Source of the DNA: Sipunculus nudus
Taxonomy: Eukaryota; Annelida; Sipuncula; Golfingiida; Sipunculidae
Reading direction: 5' to 3'
Length of the DNA stretch: 64,000 nt
Assembly (NCBI GenBank): GCA_026874595.1
Contig: CM049316.1
Location: forward strand, 30,239,339 to 30,303,338
Numbering within the stretch: position 1 is the first letter of the stretch; the number at the start of each line of letters is the position of its first letter. A model generated the notes under the pieces. That model searched no databases and was not told where the DNA came from. It was given only the letters and a program-made list of their open reading frames with translations. Positions 13,190 through 49,959 of the stretch are shown piece by piece. Both the position numbers and the translations under genes were made by a program.

Positions 13190-14743
13190 CAGTATGTCAC
13201 ATAAGTGAGGACACCACTCACGTTTCAGCAATCATTTTATTAGATCTTCCATAGAACAAATACAATGGAACTGAAACTTGGATAAATTTTAACATAGTCA
13301 ATGAAAAACATCAAAAGTGAGTACACTCCACAGTGACCATTGTCATCTGGCACTCTCCTGACACAGTTACAATTCATTCAACCATGCAAATCCACTTGTC
13401 CTATTCTATATGTACATGTACCTGTATGTATCCTGTATTAGAGTTGTGAATCTTGATGCCTTGGGATAATTTTCTCATACTGTTCACTGAATGTTCAACA
13501 TGGCACCTCATGGCAAAGAAAACTCTCTGAGGATTTGAGAAATAGAGAAATAGCATTGTTGCTCTTCACGAAGATTGCCCAGCTAGGCATACTTGTAACA
13601 CCTGAAACTGAGCTACAGTATGGTCAGGGTCATACAGCGATTTTGCAAGACAGGTTTCACTCAGAATAGGTCCCGCCAGGTTCGATCAAACAAGCTGAGT
13701 CCCCGTGCTAAATGTCAGGTTCAGAAGCTGGCTTGAAAACAGACGCATGAGTGCTGCCAGCATTGCTGTAGAGGTTGTAGAAGCAGGAGTTCAGCCTGTC
13801 AGTGCTCAGACCATACGCCATACTCTGCAACAAGTTTGTCTGCATGGCCTTCGTCCCAGAAGAAAGCCTCTTCTGAAGCTGGCTTGCAAAAAAGCCCGCC
13901 AGCAGTTTGCTGATGACATGCATGAATTACAGGAACCATGTCCTCTGGTCTGATGAGAGTTAGATAAACTTGCTTGGCTCAAGTGGTGTTCAGCATCTGT
14001 TGTGGCGCCATGGTGAGGAATACCAAGATAGTGTCTTGCCTGCAGTCAAGCATGGGGGTGGTAGTATCATGGTGTGGGGCTGTGTGAGTGCTGCTGGTAT
14101 TGGGGAGCTGTGGGTCATAAAGGGAATCATTAATTCAAACATGTTTTGTGATATTCTGAAGAAGAACATGATGCCCTCCCTTAAGAAACTTGGCCACACA
14201 GCAGTTTTCCAACATGATAACGACACCAAACATACCTCAAAGATGACAACTGCTTTCCTGAAGAAGGTAAAGGTGAAGGTTATGGAGTGGCCATGTATGT
14301 CTTCAGACTTGAACTATTTTGAGCACCTGTGGGGCATGCTCAAGCGTCAGGTGGAGGTGCGCCTGGTGTCTAACATCAACCAGTTTTGCGATGTCATCAT
14401 GGAGGAATGGAAGATGATCCCAGCAACAACCTGTGCAGCTCTGGTGAATTCCATGTCCAGGAGGATTAAGGGAGTGCTAGTTAACAATGGTGCTCACACA
14501 GAATATTAACACTTTGGATGCTGTTTAGATATTTTCATTGTAGGGTGTACTCACTTTTGTTGCCTGCCATTTAGACAACTAGGCCTCTATGTAGAGGGAA
14601 AGTATTTCTATGCTGCTATACAAGTTGTACAGTGACTTTGCTAAAATATATCCAAGTTTCAGTCCCATAGTTTTAGCCCTTAGGAAGGTCTAATAAAATG
14701 ATTGCTGAAATGTGAAGGATGTACTCACTTTTGTGACTTACTG
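13190..14743 (+). mobile_element. Tc1-type transposon with IR/DR ends, inactive
   Basis: Complete element of about 1554 bp, flanked by TA on both sides (13188-13189 and 14744-14745). The ends start CAGT and pair as inverted repeats over about 100 bp; both contain TTTCAGCAATCATTTTATTA. Each end carries a second, inner copy of the AAAAGTGAGTAC-type motif (left about 13314-13325, right about 14553-14566). This is the IR/DR layout of Tc1 elements that bind transposase at two sites per end. The only gene inside is the broken transposase at 13500-14509. Confidence 0.95.
13500..14509 (+). pseudogene. Tc1 transposase, DD34E, disrupted
   Basis: Cut-and-paste transposase of the Tc1/mariner superfamily, about 340 codons in intact relatives. 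The start is MAPHGKE at 13500. The N-terminal paired-like DNA-binding part is scattered over several frames: a one-base insertion lies just after the start region near 13522, and more shifts follow. The second DNA-binding subdomain (NRRMSAASIA, PRRKPLLKL) is readable at 13705-13930. A frameshift near 13930 leads into the catalytic domain. The three catalytic acids are all still encoded: D at 13952 (LWSDES), D at 14216 (QHDND) and E at 14321 (EHLWG), the last two 35 codons apart as expected for DD34E. A TAG at 13961 interrupts the frame three codons after the first D. The C-terminal 179 codons are open. The copy is dead, but its TIRs look mobilisable in trans. Confidence 0.93.
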
Positions 14744-20346: not shown

Positions 20347-21766
20347 CCCCGGTGTCTTCCCTGCTCCATACACAATCAAGTATCAAAGGACAATAATTGG
20401 GCAGTTTTGCGTCATTCTGCTGAGATTAACAAACCCATGAACCAACAATAAAAACAGGCTTGGATGATAACCCAACCTCCTTATATAAATATACATAAAC
20501 AAACACGGGTGAAAGCATTTATAATCGCCTGGCGGAGGTAACAAACAAGCAACGAAAGGTGAAAACTTAACCTCCTTGGCTGAGGGAAAAACTTCTGTTG
20601 TCAGCATTTTGCTGGCGAGAGTTTCAGATTCGCGAGAGGGCAATTATCTCGAAAATAAACCTTCGTAAACAAGACGCCCAAAATGCACCGGTGAACATTC
20701 GTTTGAACTGTATAGTCTCATTATCTTTGTCTGTATTGTTGCCAGGCAAAACTTATTGACATTATTAATATTAACCGATATCTTTTCTCTTATCCATGAC
20801 AAAGATTATATTATTAATAATATATTTCACATTATCTGTCTATACCGAACAAGAAATTCTAGTTCCCTTGGTCCTACCTAAATAGTAAAGATATTTGCGA
20901 GCATTATCATTATTTCATAAAAAAATATACATCATGCGTGTAGGTAATTTGTAGTGATATCGGGAATCGAACCCTCGCGAAATACTGCACTATATTGATC
21001 ACACTAATTGGTTTTAAGCACAACACAATACTCAAAGTGATGATTTCCTGGAAACATCTCCCTTGAGTGTATTTAACAAATTTGCCGTCAGCGCAATTAT
21101 TATAGACGCGTTTTTGTAGATCTCTTTCTGTGCACGTGTCAAAAGACAACAAACAGTATACATCCTGTCCGGGTTAATGAACATTCTTCAATTATTAAGG
21201 TCGAAACAACTGAGACGGGGAGCAAACTTTCTTAATCACACAGAATACCGAGGGAATCGTCACACAATGCACACGAGAGCAGCCCCATATCGATGGAGAC
21301 ATGATTTAACCTTGATGGACATTGGCCAGAGTTGATTGTTCACAGACATGCCCGCCCCTGCGATCGGTCAGGGCATTCGATCCGGTGGCTGCTCACACAA
21401 AGACCAATTCTATTTGTCAAATGATTTTCGATTATCCTACAGGTCCCCTTTGACATAAATGGTCGTCAGCCTTGGGCGGGATTGTCGATTTTTTTTTACA
21501 TTCATGAGAAGAGATTAAAAGGTACATGGGCCTTGGTCAGATACCCACCGCCGACAGCCAGGCAACAGCAGTTTAATTCACGGTAAGTAGTAATTAAAGA
21601 AACACATGTACTTTAAATCCGTATAACATGATTATCTTTACTGGCAATATGTTTTAATTATCTTAAGGCTGAGCAGGACAAGGGTGTATTTACGTGATAC
21701 GAATATTATTTACCAAATGCTAAATCATAGAAGCTTCGTCCATGATCGTCTAGACATAGCTTTTGA
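20347..21766. other. Intergenic DNA, no gene recognised
   Basis: Sequence at about 20600-20690 and 20945-21000 shares GCGAGAGTTTCAGATTCGCG-like and AATCGAACCCTCGCGAA motifs loosely with 8165-8530, a probable decayed repeat. Otherwise nothing can be supported. Confidence 0.5.
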
Positions 21767-23022
21767 ACAAGAATGTATTTGACTTCTGGCTTCCTCTGTG
21801 TATATATTAATGATCTAAGGGTAATTATGGTTATGTAAAGTTCTTATAACGCCTCCGTGAAGAATGTATGAACTTATTTATCAACAACATGTTTGTAAAC
21901 ACAGCAATGTTGACAAACAGGACAAAACCATGTAGCCCAATGTGGTAGGTTGCATAAAAATGGAGGAAGAAGAGTCACTTGTTGCAGAAACACCATTTAC
22001 AAAGCTCTGGCTTATCTGACTTGCCGTCATATGCCCTTATTGAATTGTGTTTGATTATTTTGGCGGGCCTCCATGCATTTATTATAAAAACATTGATATA
22101 AACAAAACAAGCAGCCTGTGTGCGCTGATATCCACGTTTTCTCGCCTATTTTTTTAAACTCCAAGGGATTACCTTTAGTTTAAAAAGGCCAGTTAGGTGA
22201 TTGGGCCCCTTTTACTAAACTGGCGTTACGTAGAGCGCATATCGCCGCCAAGGAAAAAATAACCCTATTGGACAGCCCTTATTGGACATTGAACGTATTT
22301 ATTTTTTAGAAAATAGTCATAATGTTAATTTGTTATAAATTACTCCGACAGTTAACAGATTCTTAAGGGTATCAACACACGACAAAACAGACTTTTGTAC
22401 AAAAATGTATTTGACTTCTGGCTTCCTCTGTGGATATATCAATGATCTAAGGGTAATTATGGTTATGTAAAGTTCTTATAACGCCTCCGTGAAGAATGTA
22501 TGAACTTATTTATCAACAACATGTTTGTAAACACAGCAATGTTGACAAACAGGACAAAACCATGCAGCCCAATGTGGTAGGTTGCATAAAAACGGAGGAA
22601 GAAGAGTCACTTGTTGCAGAAACACCATTTACAAAGCTCTGGCTTATCTGACTTGCCGTCATATGCCCTTATTGAATTGTGTTTGATTATTTTGGCGGGC
22701 CTCCATGTATTTATCATAAACACATTGATATAAACAAAACAAGCAGCCTGTGTGCGCTGATATCCACGTTTTCTCGCCTATTTTTTTAAACTCCAAGGGA
22801 TTACCTTTAGTTTAAAAAGACCAGTTAGGTGATTGGGCCCCATTTACTAAACTGGCGTTACGTAGAGCGCATATCGCCGCCAAGGAAAAAATAACCCTAT
22901 TGGACAGCCCTTATTGGACATTGAACGTATTAATTTTTCAGAAAATAGTCATAATGTTAATTTGTAATATATTACTCCGACAGTTAACAGATTCTTAAGG
23001 GTATCAACACACGTCAAAACAA
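21767..23022. repeat. Tandem duplication, two 632-bp units
   Basis: Unit 1 (about 21767-22398) and unit 2 (about 22399-23022) align end to end with only about a dozen differences, such as GTATATATTAATG versus GATATATCAATG. The copies share TGACTTCTGGCTTCCTCTGT, AACAACATGTTTGTAAACAC and GGAAAAAATAACCCTATTGG. The low divergence implies a recent event. No ORF is conserved across both units, so this is a duplication of non-coding DNA. Confidence 0.95.

Positions 23023-33603: not shown

Positions 33604-33672
<69 letters not shown>
33604..33672. repeat. (AT)n microsatellite, left of hammerhead-like hairpin
   Basis: About 34 AT units. Together with the array at 33864 it brackets the ribozyme-like hairpin. 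Confidence 0.95.
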
Positions 33673-33676
<4 letters not shown>

Positions 33677-33742
33677 TGTTCACATAGCGTGAATTCAATA
33701 CATCGCGGTGATAATGCTCTATCGTATGGGAGCGTTAATAAA

Positions 33743-33857
33743 TAATTAAAGTACGGTTAGTTTTACTTCATCAGGTACCTGAAGAGTGAGCCGGCTTGAA
33801 TGCTGCTCTCACGAAACAGATCTGTCGCACAAACTGATGAAGTTAAACTAACCGTAC

Positions 33858-33865
<8 letters not shown>
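33743..33865 (+). ncRNA. Hammerhead-ribozyme-like motif at the tip of a 31-bp inverted repeat
   Basis: The core is CTGAAGA at 33779-33785 (fits CUGA-N-GA). Stem II is GTGAG 33786-33790 with CTCAC 33808-33812. GAAA is at 33813-33816. Stem III is ACA 33816-33818 with TGT 33823-33825 around a GATC loop, and C at 33826 is the cleavage-site base. Scission is predicted between 33826 and 33827. Stem I continues with GTAC/GCAC (33775-33778 with 33827-33830, one C-A mismatch), a small internal loop, then 33743-33774 pairing with 33834-33865 in 31 of 32 positions. All invariant core bases of a type-I hammerhead are present. Hammerheads with a very short stem III are known in animal genomes, including Penelope-like elements and small retrozyme-like repeats. 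Whether this one is transcribed or active is unknown. (AT)n arrays flank both sides. Confidence 0.72.

Positions 33866-33914
<49 letters not shown>
33864..33914. repeat. (AT)n microsatellite, right of hammerhead-like hairpin
   Basis: About 25 AT units directly joined to the end of the inverted repeat. Confidence 0.95.
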
Positions 33915-41440: not shown

Positions 41441-42149
41441 CGGAGTAATGGCAGACTGACAAACCCAGGAGAGTGACTAGCCCAAGAGACTCCGGGCTAC
41501 TGCTGAGATGACTATAGAGTCCGGAAGACTTCTGGTAGCATCCATCACCATCATCAGCTGCTGTGCAGTCTGCACCCTCAATCTAAAGCCAGAGATCAGA
41601 GAAGAAGAATGCAGTCGTGGGCAGCTGCCCCGAATATTTTCATATCCATAGCCAAGGAGGATAAACAATATATGTATGAGACATAAAAACCAGGTCGTAA
41701 AGTGAAAGAACCATACATCATAAGCTGGCATTTTTTTAGCCATTGGTGCAAGTTCTGTCTGGGAAATTTCTCTTTATCTGGAGATAATAGGGAAAACTCG
41801 GGTGGACAGGGGTCGTGGAACGGACTATAAATAGTGAAAATCTCCAAGTGACTTTATATTTAATAGTGAACTAATGTAAATGGGGAAGCAAACACTGCGG
41901 AGAAGATGGTACGAAAAGCAAATATCTCCAGATGGTACCCTTGAGCTTTGGACGTTAGCTTATATTGTTCCTGTCAACGTTACTTTCAGTGGAAATGTAA
42001 ACGATCAACAACCATGATGAACATTCACTTATTGTCCACCCTTCTGGGAAATGTCGCGTGGCATGACGTCATAGCAATCTATGACTTCACGATTCACGAC
42101 GTCACATGTTGCAAGTCCAAGACAGTTGTAAAAGAAATCGGGCAAACAC
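41441..42149. other. Intronic DNA right of the Ty3/Gypsy body
   Basis: An LTR would be expected around 41440-41900, but no matching left copy was found. A few overlapping ORFs of 80-90 codons have no recognisable domain. Confidence 0.4.
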
Positions 42150-42295: not shown

Positions 42296-43934
42296 GGAAC
42301 CTAATATCAACAGATCACGTAGTAGTGACGAACATAAATTTTGTAATGGAGAAAAAAATCAGATTTTGTAACACTAGGCAGCGTGAAATGTCTAGGGGAA
42401 TGAATAAAGAAGTGGTTTGATGTTATCAAATAATTATAATTTATTCTTAAAACAGTCCTAACATTACAAGACACTAAATCAATACAATTACACAATATAA
42501 CAACAATACAACAGTAAATCAATACAAGTATATAAATAAAGTGTACAGTGCCTGGATACCACCACTGTCACAGCGACAACATCCCTTTATAACGTACAAC
42601 CCGGATGAACAGTTCACATAAATCTTCTCAGAGAAAAACAGTCCAGTTCATTCACAAAATCAATCCGTTGTAATCCAAAAGTGAAGTTCTGAAGGTGATC
42701 CCAAAAGCAAACTTAAGACTAATTAAAATCCGTTACCAATTCGAAGAAAAGTTATAACTGCCGCAACTATAGAAAAAAGTCCTCAAACTGACTTACACTC
42801 TTCTGTGTCCGCTGGAATATATCTCCACCCTCTCTCTGTCGGCTCTAAAACACAGCCCCTTATTTATGACTTTTCACCTCAAGCCGAGAACTTTCCATTT
42901 CTCGAACAATCCAAAGAACCAAATAGTACACACGTTACAGGAAACATCTAGAACAACGAGTGCTGTGTTTCTTCATATTAGGGTTCACACGCGGGCCGGC
43001 CAGGCTCGGCTGGCGAGAAAGCCCCAGATTAGCAAGACCGCTGTGTTTACACGTGGGCCGCACCCGGCCAGCTAGAACAAGGAACGCTGTAGCATAGCAA
43101 CGCCCAGGGCTTGAGCCAAACACGAATTAGAATGTCAACAGCGGACAGTAAAACAGACATCTGTAACATATGTCAAATGTCAATCAAATAAACCGTTCTT
43201 CAGATATCTTGCGGACACAGGCCCTTACACACATAACCTACATAATCGAGTGAACAATAACCCTCGCAATCTTTGTTGAAATAAGGAGGACATATTTTCT
43301 TCTGCATTTTTCGCAATGAATTATATTTAAAAATTACATCCCGAGTCTTCCAATCAGCAAGTTTCTGGTAGCTTCGGTTCCGTAGACCTTGCTTTGTCCA
43401 GAAATTTATATTGTTGTTTCATGAATTATGAATAATAAAACTGAACCAATCAAATGGTTCGCGTGCGCTTCCTTTACGCATGGATGAAAAACATGTTGTT
43501 GGTATCTTCGCTTATCGGTCCGGTAATGCTAGATCGAAATTCATATAAACTAACAAATCAAATAAAGGTTTGTAACCCTTTTCAGTTCCCAGTACATGTG
43601 TTCTTGTTCATGCGGCTTGTGAACAATTTGTGAACAACTGTGAACTGTTTACTTCTGTCACGTTGGATGTGATTGGCCGTTATAATGCGGGCCCTTCTCA
43701 GGAACGGGCTTGTTTATAATTTATGAAACATAAAACAGAGGACCTCTATAGAACAAGGTGTCAGGAGGCGTAGCTGCCAGAGCTTAAAAGAAAGATAACA
43801 TCACATGTGATCCAGTTGTCCAATGCTAGCGCATTCTAACATAACATTGAAGACGCAACATAAAATTAAAATTGTTGACAAAACAATTGTTAAATATAAA
43901 AGAAACTATTCATTTTATACTCTTTTATTTACAG
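42296..43934. other. Intronic DNA, nothing recognised
   Basis: Short ORFs only. The 150 bp before 43935 are AT-rich and end in a pyrimidine-rich acceptor for the mucin-like exon. Confidence 0.5.
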
Positions 43935-44651
43935 GTTGTAGTGATAAGGTCACCACTCAGCCTCCCAGCACCACTCCGATTCCGACCACCTCTGAACCTC
44001 AAAGCACCACTCAAATTCTGACCACCTCTCAACCTCCCAGTACCACTCAGATTCCGACCACCTCTCAACCACCCAGCACCACTCAGTTTCCAAGCACCAC
44101 TCAACCTCCCAGCATCACTCAGAATCCCTCCACCTTTCAACCTCCCAGAACCACTCAGATTCCAACCACCTCTCAACCTCCCAGCAACACTCAAATTCCG
44201 ACCACCTCTCAACCAACCAGCACCACTCAGATTCCCACCACCCCTCAACCTCCCAGTACCGCTCAGATTCCCACCACCTCTGAACCTCCCAGCACCAATC
44301 AAATTCCGACTACCTCTGAACCTCCAAGCATCACCCAGATTCCCACCACCTCTGAACCTCCCAGCACCACTCAAATTCCGAACATCTCTGAACCTCCGAA
44401 CGCCACTCTGGGTCAGGGCATCTCTCAACCTCCTAGCATCACTCATTCGCAAGGCATCACTCAATCTCCCAGCATCACTCAGGCGCAAGGCACCACTCAA
44501 CTTCCCAACAATACGCAGGCGCAAGGCACCACTCAGGATCAAGCAAGTTCTCTACCATCCAACCCTACTCCTGAGCAAACAACAAATGCTCAAATGTCAA
44601 CAACACAAGGATATAATGGCGAGTATAAAATTGCTTCATATCATTATATTG
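43935..44651 (+). CDS. C-type lectin-like gene, Thr/Pro-rich mucin-like exon
   Basis: Acceptor TCTTTTATTTACAG; enters in phase 1, as required by the exon ending at 31947. After GCSDKV the frame is a tandem array of a 12-residue unit close to QPPSTTQIPTTS, about 12-13 clear units. It drifts into ITQAQGTTQ-like units and ends near QGYNGEYK. At DNA level this is a 36-bp minisatellite. Such Thr/Ser/Pro arrays are heavily O-glycosylated stalks that hold binding domains apart from each other or from the membrane. The 3' limit is uncertain: the frame reaches a TAA at 44666-44668, and the only phase-1 donor-like site near the end is G/GTATTC at 44652. Use of the TAA would give a short secreted form. 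The antisense 205-codon ORF is a shadow of the repeat. Confidence 0.8.
43966..44400 (+). repeat. 36-bp coding minisatellite
   Basis: About twelve imperfect repeats of a 36-bp unit (CCTCCCAGCACCACTCAGAT plus TCC-GACCACCTCT-CAA-like), all in frame. Copy number is likely to vary between alleles. Confidence 0.9.
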
Positions 44652-44699
44652 GTATTCAAATTAATTAAAAAAAAATAATTCTTATAAAATGAAGAATAG

Positions 44700-47420
44700 C
44701 CATCAGACCGTTTTTAGCTCAGCTGATTGAAAGTCATCTGCGCAATAGCGATCACTCTTCGTCCGTCATCCGGCTGTCTGGCCGTCCGGACGTCTTGTCG
44801 TCCGTCCGTTAACAGGGCACAAATCGTAACCGCTGGACCTGGAATCTTCTAACTCAACAAATATCCTTGGAAATGTGAAAGTAAGTCTCTGTTACCCAAT
44901 TTTTTTTAGCTATGGGTCTCGTAAGTACCCCCCAGAATAATAAAAAATTTGATTCAAATGCTCAAATATTTGGATAACCACTACATTGATCCCCATGATT
45001 CTCTGCATGAATATTGATCATGGAGTGTTCCATCAGTTTCTGCAAACTGGTGACGTCACCTGTATTTTTTTTCAATTTTAACGATTTTTTTTTTCTCTAT
45101 TTTTGATATCTTCAAAGAAGCTGTCATCTGTTAACAGGGCACAAATCGTAACTGCTGGAACTGGAATGTTCTTATTTGACATCAAGGGAGGTCCATGAAA
45201 AGTCTCTGTGGAAACATGAAATTAGGTCTGTGTTACCCTTTTCATCCAAGCTATTGGGCTCGTAAGTACCCCTCAGAATAATTAAAAATTTGATACAAAA
45301 GGTCCAGTATCTGAATAACTAATGCATTGATCATCATGATTCTTTGCATGAATATTGATCATGGAGTGTTCCATAAGTTCCTGCAAACTGGTGGTGCCGC
45401 CTGTATTTTTTTCATTTTTTTACGAATTATTTTCTCTATTTTTGTTACCTTCAAAGAAACTGTCATCTATGATCAGGGCACAAACCGTAACTGCTGGACC
45501 TGGAATCTTCATACTAAAGTTCAAGGGAGGCCCATGAAAGGTCTCTGTTGAAACCTGAAATAAGGTCTCTGTTACCCATATCCTCCGAGCTATGGGGCTC
45601 GTATATACCCCCAGAATAATTAAAAATTTTATACAAAAGCTCCAGTTTCTGATCAACTAATGCATTGATCACCATGATTCTTTGCATGATTATTTATCAT
45701 GGACCTCTTCTTCAGTTTCTGCATACTGGTGGCGCCATCTCTAATTTTTCTAATTTTTATGGGGTTTTTTTCTCTATTTTTGAGACCTTCAAATAATGCT
45801 TTATCTGTTAACAGAGCACAATTCATCACTGTTTGACCTAGAATCTTCTTACTTATCATCTAAAGAGGTCCATGAAAAGTCTTTATGGAAATTTGATATT
45901 TTGTCTCCCATATCCTCTGAGCTATGTGGCTCATAAGGATAAGTAAAAAAAACTCTGCATTCGTTTTCGGAGAACTCATCTGAGACCCTTGAACTAATCT
46001 TTTCGAAACCCAGCATAGTTGTTTCCTCACCTATGTAGTTGTGGGTAGTAAAGACAGGTGGCACCACCTGCAATCCTTTATGGGCAATACGAATGGGTGT
46101 CTTTTTAGATAACAGCCCATATCTCAGGAGTGGTTCAATGTATTGGGCTGAAAATTTGTGTGACTATAGATCTTGGATCTCTCCATCTCGTAATTGCGAC
46201 TGGCGGCGCCACCTACAATACTTTTTGCGTAGCGTCCACCTGTGCATTTGCCATCTCTTTGTCTAAGTGGTTCTTTAATGTATCGGGTTGAAATTGTGCA
46301 TGTTCATAGATTCTCGACACCTCCATCTCGTAAACAAGACTGGTGGCGCCATCTGCAGTTGAATTTGCGTGGCGTCCACCCATATAATTGCTTTTGGTGA
46401 AAATTGCTCATATCTCAGGAGTGGTTCAAGGGATCGGTCTGATATTTGGCATGTCCATCCATCTTGGAAAATTTTCTTGTAAAACAGACAGGTGGTGCCT
46501 ACTACCTTCCTGTTTCAATAGAATAAATTAATGTTTTTTTCTTAGGAGTGATGTGCCGATATTGGCCAGAAATTGTGCATGTCCATATATCTTGGACTCC
46601 TCCATCTTGTACTCAAGACTGGTGGCGCCATCTGCAATTGTTTTCCTGTTGCATCCATCCGTACATTTGCTTTGGGTGAAAATTGCTCATATTGTAGGAG
46701 TGGTTCAAGGTATTGGTCTGAAATTTTGCTTGTCAATCCGTCTTGGAGAGTTTTCTCGTAAACCAGACAGTTGGCGCCAGATGTTTTTGTTGATTAATTT
46801 TTTGCACTTTTCTCCGAGTTTTAGTGGACTATATTCAGGAGTGGTGTGACATACCACTCAATTCATCTCTCACTTCATCCGTACCACTTTGATTTCGGCA
46901 GATACACGTTGCCGCTTGTTGACTGTTTTCTAGTTAATGATGTGTTACGAATACTCTAGGAATCTGAATAATAAATAATACACTGATGGCCATATTATTT
47001 AGCATGTATATTGATCATGGAGTGTTACATCAGTTCCTGTACACTGGTGGCACCACCTGTATTTTTTTATTTATTCTCTATTTATGAGAACTTCAAATGA
47101 AGTGGTCATCTGTTAACACAGCACAAACCGTAACCGCTGAACCTAGAATTTTCTAACTTGTCACCCAGGAAGGTCAATAAAAAGTCTTCATGGAAACCTG
47201 AAATTAGGTCTCTGTTTCCCTTATCCTTTGAGCTATTGGGCTCGTAAATATCCCCGAGAATAATTATAAAATTGATACAAAAGCTCCAGTATCTGAATAA
47301 CTAATGCCTTGATAGCCATGATTCTTTGGATACATATTGATCGTGGAGTGTTTCATCAGTTCCTACACACTGGTGGCACTACCTGTATTTTTTCCATTTT
47401 TTTCTATTTATGGGACCTTC
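44700..47420 (+). repeat. Diverged tandem repeats, ~340-bp and shorter units
   Basis: A ~340-bp unit starts near 44820 and recurs. TGATCATGGAGTGTTxCATxAG is at about 45015, 45357, 45695 (as ATCATGGACCTCTTCTTCAG), 47011 and 47340. ACAAATCGTAAC(C/T)GCTGGA is at about 44820 and 45135. Between 46000 and 46850 a shorter relative dominates, with CTCGTAAACAAGACTGGTGG and then CGCCATCTGCA. All copies carry GGTGGCGCCA(C/T)C or a variant. No open frame persists across units. This is intronic satellite-like DNA. Confidence 0.75.
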
Positions 47421-49959
47421 AAATGAAGTGGTCATATGTCAAAAAGCCCACTGTAACCCATTTCTAAGGACAGTTCACAAAATTCATGATTTTTTTGCAC
47501 TCTGGCAGTCATTTTGGTCATTGTTCAAAGTTTCTTGAATTCAGCTGAGCGTCATTGTCCATGGGCCACTAGTTAGTACATGGATTCAACGGACTCAACA
47601 AACGTGTTTAGAGGGGGCGCAACAGGCGCGTGCCCCCCAAAAATCTGTTCAACAAATTTTAGGGGCATCAAATTTCGTAAATTGTCAGGGCGTGACTAAA
47701 CCTTTTGCAAAATAAGCTCACAAAGTTGTATTTGTAAGGCCCAGGCCCTAGTTAGCCTCAATTTAGTAACAGTATATTGGATGACACCCTTTCGTAGATA
47801 TGATTGACCAAACAAAATCCTCATTGGAAGCTGCTGCTCATGCATAGGTCATGCCTAAATTAAGGGACTTGCACCGGCGAGGAATTCATAAAGGGCCCCA
47901 TTGAAATGTTTGAAAATGTAGAAGTCTCACTTAATTTTATTTTAGCATAGGAATTTCAAATGAGGCACAAGTAAGAGCTGGAAAAGGATTAAATCACGTG
48001 TTTTACGAAACGTAAAAAGGCCTATAAAGTTTCCAGAGGTTCCCGGGCCCGTCAGGAAATTCCTATGTGAAGAACACAAGAAAATATTTGAAAATGAGAA
48101 AATCTCTTTTGGCTTTTATGTTAACCTGCATTTATATAGCTGTCATCAGGACAACTCAGTTTTACAAAGGGGCCCGGCCAAATGCCTGTTAATGCGATCT
48201 TCACGGATTCATGCTGATTATAAACGATTAAGTGGAGAAACTTCTTTATTTTTTTTTTAAATTATCTGGGTGCTTTTTATGTGTGGGTGGGTGGGGGGGT
48301 CGCTTTCATTTTGTTTATTAATCCCGCGCTACCTTTATATGCATGCTATATATATCTTGTCGAATACAACTTATCAGGAACCCATATAGCTTCCTATTAT
48401 TGTGACAGACCAGGTATGGATGCGTTTGAGATGCACAATATCAAATATTCAAATTCATACGAGCAAATTTATTATTAAACTTTTTTTATCATACATGACG
48501 AATGTCCCCAGAAAGTAAAAAAGAAACTTTGGTAGTTCCTTCGATCTGTTTGGTGGAACATGATGCAAGCTGATATATGTAAACCGTGAGCTATTGTATA
48601 TAAAAAAGAAAACGGTTTTCAAAGGAATCACAGTAGTCATCGATACAGCTTCCACTGCTGATCTAACACCTGTCAAAGTATACTAAGTATGTAACTATGT
48701 GACGTCTCTGCACTCGCCTTGGTTGCGGCGGCACTGTTTTAACTATTTTAACCCCTTATTATGTTTCTGTAAGTATTTTTTTATTCTTCCAAATTTCAAT
48801 TGGTTTTGTCGTTATTGTGATAGTTTTTCTTGTTGATAGAACATATAGCATGAGAGGCACATACTGCAGTGTGGATAATCTCTTGTAGGTTGCTTGCCTT
48901 GTGATTAAAGGTATGCCTGCTGAGACCTGTACATCGTTCTGTTCAGTTTAGCATGGTGGAAAAAGTATATATATGAGAATATATACGTATCATGAAATAA
49001 GGATAACTATGAATCCATCTTTTACAGTCCATTCTTTAGTATACCGCTTCAATATGTAGATAGCCTTAGATTTTAACCGAATAGAAAGTTTATAACATGC
49101 GTAAAACTGAATGGATATTATAATGAAGAAAAAGGAGAGGGCCGGAAACCTTTTGTACCGCTATAAAAAAATTCTCTCGGAGGCCCTGCTTTAAGTCTCA
49201 TGCAGAGCGTCAACATATTATCACAAGAAAACTGAATAAAATATATCCTTTCTACTAAAACATCACTGATTTTTAATTAATCTTAATAATATGACCGAAT
49301 AGACACATTAGTGATTGTCACCCTTGACGCAAAGTAGGCCTAACTCTATGCATTAGTAAAATCCAGTAAAAATGTGGCTCTGCAATTTGAAACAACTCTC
49401 ATGCACAACAGAACAGCATTAGAAAAGCCTGGGCAAACAATGATTCACAAGTAGCTTACCTATTTTTGTCTGTATATGTATTGATTAAGGAGAATAGAAT
49501 GTTGAAAAACAAAATTACATACTTCACACAGTCTTAGAGAGGGTGTTTTTAGCGTCGTGCGTCGTTTGTACGTTAACCATAGCTATCTCAAAAACGGCAG
49601 GAGCTAGCATCACCAATTTTTTTGCAAATAATCAGTCATCTGAAAAACTCTATCGGGTTTTGTTTATTTTTTTTCTAACTGCATTTTCCTGGTAGATTTT
49701 ATGAGGGGAAAGCTAAAAAAAGCTTTAAAAAACCTTCTTCTCCGAATCTGTCCAGCCAATTTGTCCAGTATTTCACAGAAATGATCTCTGGAACAATTTC
49801 TTTCAAGTTTGTTTGAATGCTTCCAGTTCGGAGATTTTTTCCGAGTTGCAGGATGTGAACTTAGTCATCTGTCCAAAAAAGCATATTAAAATTTCAATCT
49901 CAAAAAAGGATGGAGCTATCATCACCAATTTTTATGTCAATGTTGGTCACATGAGTCAT
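47421..49959. other. Intronic DNA, mostly unrecognised
   Basis: Apart from the weak CTLD-like crumb at 48333-48413 and a purine-rich stretch GGGTGGGTGGGGGGGTCGC at 48285, nothing could be assigned. Confidence 0.45.
48333..48413 (+). pseudogene. Possible CTLD C-terminal crumb
   Basis: The frame LYACYIYLVEYNLSG, then THIASYYCDRPG, runs into a donor-like G/GTATGG at 48414 in phase 1. The spacing of the two cysteines, the THxxSYYC segment and the phase-1 donor resemble the end of the CTLD1 second-half exon. The WIGL and WxNW parts are missing. This could be chance. Confidence 0.22.

Follow-up and report, generated by a model that had tools for sequence, protein, structure and literature searches.

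A hairpin with a hammerhead ribozyme motif in Sipunculus nudus as a probable remnant of a Penelope-like element

The hairpin at positions 33743-33865 of the analysed stretch of Sipunculus nudus DNA (64,000 nucleotides, hereafter the window) is very probably a tiny, dead insertion of a Penelope-like element (PLE), in which two broken copies lie head to head and carry the motif of a self-cutting ribozyme. The family of copies, a large reverse transcriptase (RT)-like open reading frame (ORF), the hammerhead, two fixed tail ends and the head-to-head arms can all be read directly in the genome.

Hammerhead core and inverted arms in the window

The hairpin consists of the following features, with arm boundaries taken from blastn of the family unit against the window and TA arrays from Tandem Repeats Finder.

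33604-33676, no strand: left (TA)n array, 36.5 copies, the probable target sequence
33669-33774, minus strand: left arm, an inverted 5'-truncated element end with a long tail (unit 72-177; blastn 93.4% over 106 nt)
33772-33778, plus strand: head-to-head join CAG/GTAC, with what is left of the native 5' strand of stem I (CAGTTTGTAC in the family, here lacking TTT)
33775-33871, plus strand: right arm, a 5'-truncated element end with the hammerhead and a short tail (unit 13-109; blastn 95.9% over 97 nt)
33779-33785, plus strand: hammerhead core CTGAAGA (C3-A9), from the letters directly and a core descriptor scan
33786-33812, plus strand: stem II, GTGAG (33786-33790) with CTCAC (33808-33812), and a 17-nt loop that can pair further (CGGC/GCTG)
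33813-33816, plus strand: core GAAA (G12, A13, A14, A15.1), from the letters and the descriptor scan
33816-33825, plus strand: stem III, ACA/TGT with loop GATC (33819-33822), the ten letters ACAGATCTGT forming a perfect palindrome
33826, plus strand: predicted cleavage-site C17 (A in the other subfamily)
33827-33836, plus strand: stem I 3' strand GCACAAACTG, from the cmsearch alignment of family covariance model R1
33864-33914, no strand: right (TA)n array, 25.5 copies

A complete hammerhead core spans 33779-33826, and all invariant type I elements (CUGANGA, GAAA and an H before stem I) are present. The first-pass annotation had placed CTGAAGA, a 5-bp stem II, GAAA, a 3-bp stem III with a GATC loop and the C at 33826 in this order, and each of these was confirmed. 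The core lies within an inverted repeat of 33 nt (33742-33774 / 33834-33866; 97%, one mismatch), slightly longer than the near-perfect repeat of about 31 bp noted earlier, and the (AT)n arrays described on both sides correspond to those listed above, the outer flank of each arm being all TA. The fold of the 123-nt stretch is far more stable than those of 200 shuffled versions (z -9.4). A loose core descriptor (GAA only, stem II of at least 5 and stem III of at least 3 pairs, stem I not required) finds 20 matches in 400 Markov-1 windows of equal size, or about 0.05 per window, and two in the real one: the core at 33779 and a minus-strand match at about 41518-41557, which has GAAG in place of GAAA and was read as chance.

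Of the three helices, stems II and III are intact, and the core-proximal part of stem I is irregular with its 5' strand partly missing. Between the core and the long helix, GTAC (33775-33778) faces GCACAAA (33827-33833), leaving an A.C mismatch and a 3-nt bulge. The earlier claim that stem I is extended by 32 pairs is therefore not confirmed, since this irregular stretch makes the long helix discontinuous with the core. Both CAG and GTAC of the native strand are present, the intervening TTT is absent, and upstream of CAG stands an inverted second copy of the tail. On this alignment, what looked like a 31-bp "stem I extension" of the ribozyme is thus two head-to-head element arms paired with each other, not its own stem I. 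The cmsearch alignment of R1 to the window copy has a 3-nt gap at the join, and part of native stem I is, by the same comparison with the family, lost there.

The first-pass annotation had suggested scanning the hairpin with the Rfam hammerhead model. No Rfam hammerhead family matches the window (gathering and loose thresholds; 129 bases at E<=10). Other copies of the family are likewise missed, both in 12 loci at gathering thresholds and in one tight stretch at E<=10, so the miss says little about the window copy. A genome scan with RF00163, in which 73 of 150758 candidates were scored, named no family copy and gave two sub-threshold places elsewhere; such matches mean little because they occur in 11 of 14 control genomes. 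The weak Rfam matches listed look like (TA)n or hairpin artefacts. ARAGORN found no tRNA, the phage collection gave no match, and neither did viral contigs searched with a 710-aa ORF of a related family (described below).

Elsewhere in the window, an open frame of 181 aa at 13964-14509 reads like part of a Tc1/mariner transposase. Two adjacent 630-bp copies, 97.5% identical, lie at 21760-23021. An open frame of 285 aa at 43811-44668 consists largely of 36-bp repeats and is rich in Thr and Pro, and a 338-bp tandem repeat occupies 44868-45891 and 46970-47458, with three copies and further diverged copies downstream.

A dispersed family adjoining RT-like ORFs

Further copies, which the first-pass annotation had proposed to look for, do exist: the hammerhead unit forms a dispersed family in the window's own genome (1,426,538,692 bases, 153 contigs). 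A search with 33743-33865, in which 40 of 462 first-look candidates were scored, returned at least 94 match rows; 34 of these cover the query from base 33 to 121-123, and many of the rest match a single arm. From the flanks of 30 loci, the native order of the unit is CAGTTTGTAC CTGAAGA GTGAG...CTCAC GAAA CAGATCTGT C/A GCACAAACTG, followed by the tail and usually by (TA)n. Native stem I in the family copies is CAGTTTGTAC/GCACAAACTG, which gives eight pairs, an A.C mismatch and a G-C pair.

Blast-anchored extraction yielded 66 spanning hits, 34 of them distinct, the window copy included. Every core letter is kept in 24 of the 34, again including the window copy, and the other 10 are substituted or shifted by indels. 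An alignment was built from 23 of the 34, leaving out the window copy and ten copies that are head-to-head joins or carry indels, and retaining one copy with a stem I indel (L046). Stem II has 95.5% of its cells paired, stem III 98.5% and stem I 79.1%, and overall pairing is 86.9%, against 22.7-52.5% with the partners slid. Two-sided changes from A-U to G-C occur in stem II of L056 and L057 and in stem I of L045. This covariation is thin (two pairs with a two-sided change, equalled in 57 of 500 shuffles) and is, taken alone, weak support for a ribozyme family. The covariance model R1 made from this alignment scores the window copy at 82.4 bits (E 8e-22), its only match at E<=10 in the 64 kb. 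Because a family model built without the window copy matches it, and because 24 of the 34 copies keep the core, the window core is, by this comparison, a hammerhead by descent.

Longer copies share a region upstream of the unit that holds an ORF (L012:2183-2701, L037, L039, L040). With 150 of 2028 candidates scored, a search with 172 aa of this ORF gave at least 150 matches at E<=1e-10, and their open frames reach 764 aa. In a related family, at L063, ORFs of 710 aa are repeated in tandem with a period of 2427 bp; its three hammerheads have a CTGATGA core, are unlike the window's in sequence and stand one before each ORF start read, with the cleavage site 166 nt upstream of the ATG. The ORFs contain the blocks KDHKPNF, YRDDG and YIGLTE..FKxRY. 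The first two we take to be RT-like and the third to be like a GIY-YIG-type endonuclease, and by these motifs the ORFs are presumably Penelope-like. Pfam and PDB sequence searches with the ORFs gave no significant RT or GIY-YIG match, and the family is called PLE-like on the basis of motifs, architecture and literature. The earlier observation that the window holds no Penelope RT still stands, as tblastn with two ORFs of the genome found no match there at E<=1.

Among 11 related PLE-like loci scanned for hammerheads (L084-L091, 3' regions; L059, L061 and L062), five carry one: L086, L088 and L090, which are close to L063, and L087 and L089, both groups being unrelated in sequence to the window's. 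The scan found no hammerhead in the other six (L059, L061, L062, L084, L085 and L091). Two further PLE-like families have hammerheads of different sequence at the same place as the window family's, and this recurrence of unlike hammerheads is more telling than the covariance evidence. The hammerhead-bearing terminal repeats are tandem in L063 and form inverted arms in 32 distinct two-ended insertions. An autonomous element would read hammerhead - tail - ORF (RT and GIY-YIG-type endonuclease) - hammerhead - tail.

The first-pass annotation had raised the possibility that the hairpin is the remnant of a circular-RNA retrozyme, that is, of a non-autonomous, small tandem hammerhead repeat that moves via circular RNA. 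The short type I hammerhead does sit in a dispersed repeat, and metazoan retrozymes carry, according to PMC7229834, type I hammerheads in dispersed tandem repeats of 150-450 bp. One locus (L092) also has an extra tail piece 125 bp from a full copy, with its inner end (unit 63) beside the cleavage site. However, the short tandem repeats and the canonical loop-loop hammerheads of those retrozymes were not found in the loci read: no short tandem array of whole hammerhead units occurs there, family stem I has no loop for a loop-loop contact, and stem III is palindromic. Longer copies adjoin the RT-like ORF, and a single inner end of 52 (unit 1-101) falls at cleavage position 65. A retrozyme origin is accordingly very unlikely, and the suggested remnant is not supported.

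The same count of inner ends gives no support to insertions templated by hammerhead-cleaved RNA, a route that was considered and rejected. As a separate observation, the L092 piece (335-449) is tail only, starts next to the predicted cleavage site and has TA on both sides; it is possibly a copy of cleaved RNA.

Long and short tail ends

Element ends cluster at two points, a short end finishing in ..ACTTTAATTAT and a long end finishing in ..AACAATACAAAT, 68 nt further on. Outward of both there is nearly always (TA)n. The window insertion has its long end on the left and its short end on the right. This pairing was examined in family loci among L001-L083 and in L086, L090, L094, L095 and L102-L105. 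Across all loci the pairing table has 38 rows, of which 35 are long/short, two have one undecided end (L014, L026) and one is long/long; the last comes from an internal part of L016 (unit 109-177) and lacks TA on its outer flank. When one pair is taken per locus, and one per set of loci that overlap or share flanks (L064/L065 and L072/L075 share theirs), all 32 distinct readable two-ended insertions are long/short, the window's included, and 30 of them are TA-rich outside both ends. In another 32 loci the stretch fetched contains an arm without an inverted partner; these are uninformative on the pairing, so not every family copy is demonstrably two-ended.

Several comparisons bear on this regularity. 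First, arm ends overall are about evenly divided (n=98, a few internal pieces included: 48 short, 46 long, 4 undecided), and independence would therefore predict long/short in about half of the insertions. Second, 20 new loci were selected solely for matching the long tail. An inverted partner is present in 17 of them and is short in 17 of 17; three have none. This selection could not recover short/short pairs, but those by the 33743-33865 query and by the ORF query could. Third, the arms of an insertion agree in their subfamily letter in 29 of 30 readable cases, L038 being the exception, and in the letter at the cleavage site in 22 of 23, where L069 is the exception. Finally, seven insertions of two other PLE-like families were tried: all four readable ones are long/short, the end was not reached in two, and one is not a readable pair. 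Since every readable two-ended insertion is long/short, the sequences suggest that each insertion makes use of both reverse-transcription start sites, once each.

Inner ends are more variable. They fall at unit 2-17 in 27 of 52 cases, which is partly a selection effect of the 33743-33865 query, and in 10 of 26 for loci chosen by tail alone. Joins share more letters than expected (mean 2.35 vs 0.70 at random; four or more in 7 of 20 vs 1.9%), a rough estimate from overlaps entered by hand. The idea that one kind of tail always sits on the longer arm was rejected, as both long-tail and short-tail arms can carry element body. Compared with shuffles, the tail segment as a whole gives a better fold in the main family and in the window but not in the other two families. 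By eye, a GCTC..GAGCACT stem-loop lies between the two tail ends in all three PLE-like families (L029:1598-1665, L063:3965-4040, L105:730-800 and, on the minus strand, window 33669-33741); it is perhaps part of the RT start signal. L064 and L065 are the same insertion at two places on contig C16, in inverted orientation and some 9.5 Mb from each other; the flank is 99.5% identical, and a segmental duplication is likely.

The unequal ends weigh on two other accounts of the hairpin. It could be a MITE or another DNA transposon with inverted terminal repeats and a hammerhead-like string by chance, as a short inverted repeat with TA on both sides and many dispersed compact copies might suggest. 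Yet the outer ends of the arms fall at two fixed points within a longer element, their inner truncations vary as those of cDNAs do, longer copies continue into the RT-like ORF, and the outer ends differ in 32 of 32 distinct readable two-ended copies. This origin is hardly credible, and the MITE-like carrier envisaged in the first-pass annotation is disfavoured by the difference between its two ends and by the other copies that extend into that ORF. The second account is that a single cDNA folded back and primed itself at the hammerhead, rather than two cDNAs being primed separately. Palindromic head-to-head joins are common, self-priming is proposed for PLEs in the excerpts of PMC3846280, and some arms are truncated at nearly equal points (13/13, 4/3, 27/29). 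Fold-back predicts equal tails on both sides, however, and the tails are unequal in all 32 distinct two-ended insertions, including the window's; it is accordingly an unlikely origin.

The simplest account of the hairpin as a head-to-head PLE insertion would be the following course of events. An endonuclease would have cut both strands of a TA array, as the sequence and the excerpts of PMC11167929 suggest. Each 3' end may then have primed a cDNA on element RNA, one at the long-tail start and one at the short-tail start. Both cDNAs would have stopped early, within or just past the hammerhead, and, again from the sequence together with PMC11167929, may have been joined head to head via short self-complementary stretches. 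An early stop of both would leave two inverted arms with the hammerhead near the apex, as in the window. In its general form this becomes a tentative proposal, possible but doubtful: each PLE insertion would use both RT starts exactly once, one per cut strand and probably on the same RNA, and the two cDNAs, being of equal polarity, could anneal only at self-complementary stretches, which the hammerhead and the tail supply.

Ribozyme activity and PLE integration

In the minimum-energy fold of the window copy, the core CUG pairs with CAG and the hammerhead does not form; forcing it costs 5.2 kcal/mol. For two native copies folded as single strands, too, a different structure is more stable, by 2.8 and 3.2 kcal/mol. 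Stem III with its loop is a ten-letter palindrome in the main family (ACAGATCTGT) and also in L056 (ACAGTACTGT) and L087 (ACTACGTAGT), and with ACAGATCTGT a 10-bp stem III could form between two copies. When six sequences were folded as two copies, the double hammerhead was exact in L056 and L087, nearly so in L048 and L028, and absent in L063 and the window copy. Because of these single-copy and two-copy folds, the family ribozyme is expected to act in pairs or with the help of protein, and the window copy is expected to be poor or dead as a ribozyme. Since the head-to-head join appears to have removed part of stem I, the window copy is in all likelihood an inert relic. The ribozyme of the living element probably acts on tandem RNA, perhaps paired via the palindromic stem III or helped by protein.

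PLE hammerheads, tails and inverted ends are already published. The minimal hammerhead ribozymes of PLEs were reportedly described by Cervera and de la Pena in 2014. The double-hammerhead fold obtained here fits the idea that minimal PLE hammerheads act in pairs. The excerpts of PMC6431247 cite that 2014 work on the minimal PLE hammerheads, and such hammerheads are also described in those of PMC6155905 and PMC7229834. According to PMC6155905, hammerhead motifs are present in every PLE sequence available, mostly in a minimal form without helix III and tertiary contacts. The first-pass remark that short-stem-III hammerheads are established in PLEs is right. The window family shares with the minimal PLE hammerheads the short stem III, the lack of a visible loop-loop contact, a repeat adjoining a PLE ORF and many dispersed copies. 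Unlike them, the window copy sits in a truncated head-to-head insertion and has lost part of its native stem I strand.

Two published systems are close to the insertions described here. PLEs have, in the excerpts of PMC3846280, inverted pLTRs with a tail that is optional on one, palindromic joins and AT-rich targets. Inverted terminal copies, palindromic joins, an optional one-sided tail and simple AT-rich targets are thus shared with the Penelope elements of Adineta vaga (PMC3846280, same excerpts). In contrast, the insertions described here show the tail asymmetry in every readable two-ended case and often lack the internal body, and their (TA)n flanks make any target duplication unreadable. 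The excerpted open-licence literature, PMC3846280 included, yielded no claim that the two ends of a PLE always differ. In PAc, a Poseidon PLE of Anolis carolinensis, two RT start sites define the tail, both strands are cut, and a hammerhead lies at the start of the ORF (excerpts of PMC11167929). The window family likewise has a hammerhead near the ORF start, two adjacent putative RT starts and AT-rich targets. The cutting and extension of both DNA strands, described for PAc in the same excerpts, are here deduced from sequence. The cleavage site is inside the ORF in PAc, whereas in L063 the predicted one lies upstream of it, as noted above. In the same part of PMC11167929, the ribozyme did not cleave unless protein was present, insertion in vitro was normal with hammerhead mutants, and no reads ended at the cleavage site. 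These results call for caution on any role of the ribozyme in insertion.

The window hairpin contains a hammerhead that curated RNA models missed, and it illustrates how PLE debris can pass for a ribozyme-bearing MITE. PLE integration is still poorly understood, and long/short pairing, which argues against fold-back of a single cDNA, provides a concrete constraint on it from three PLE-like families of one genome. If each insertion does use both RT starts, the hammerhead would gain a second use as a DNA pairing sequence at the join, and abortive events would leave MITE-like hairpins such as the one in the window.
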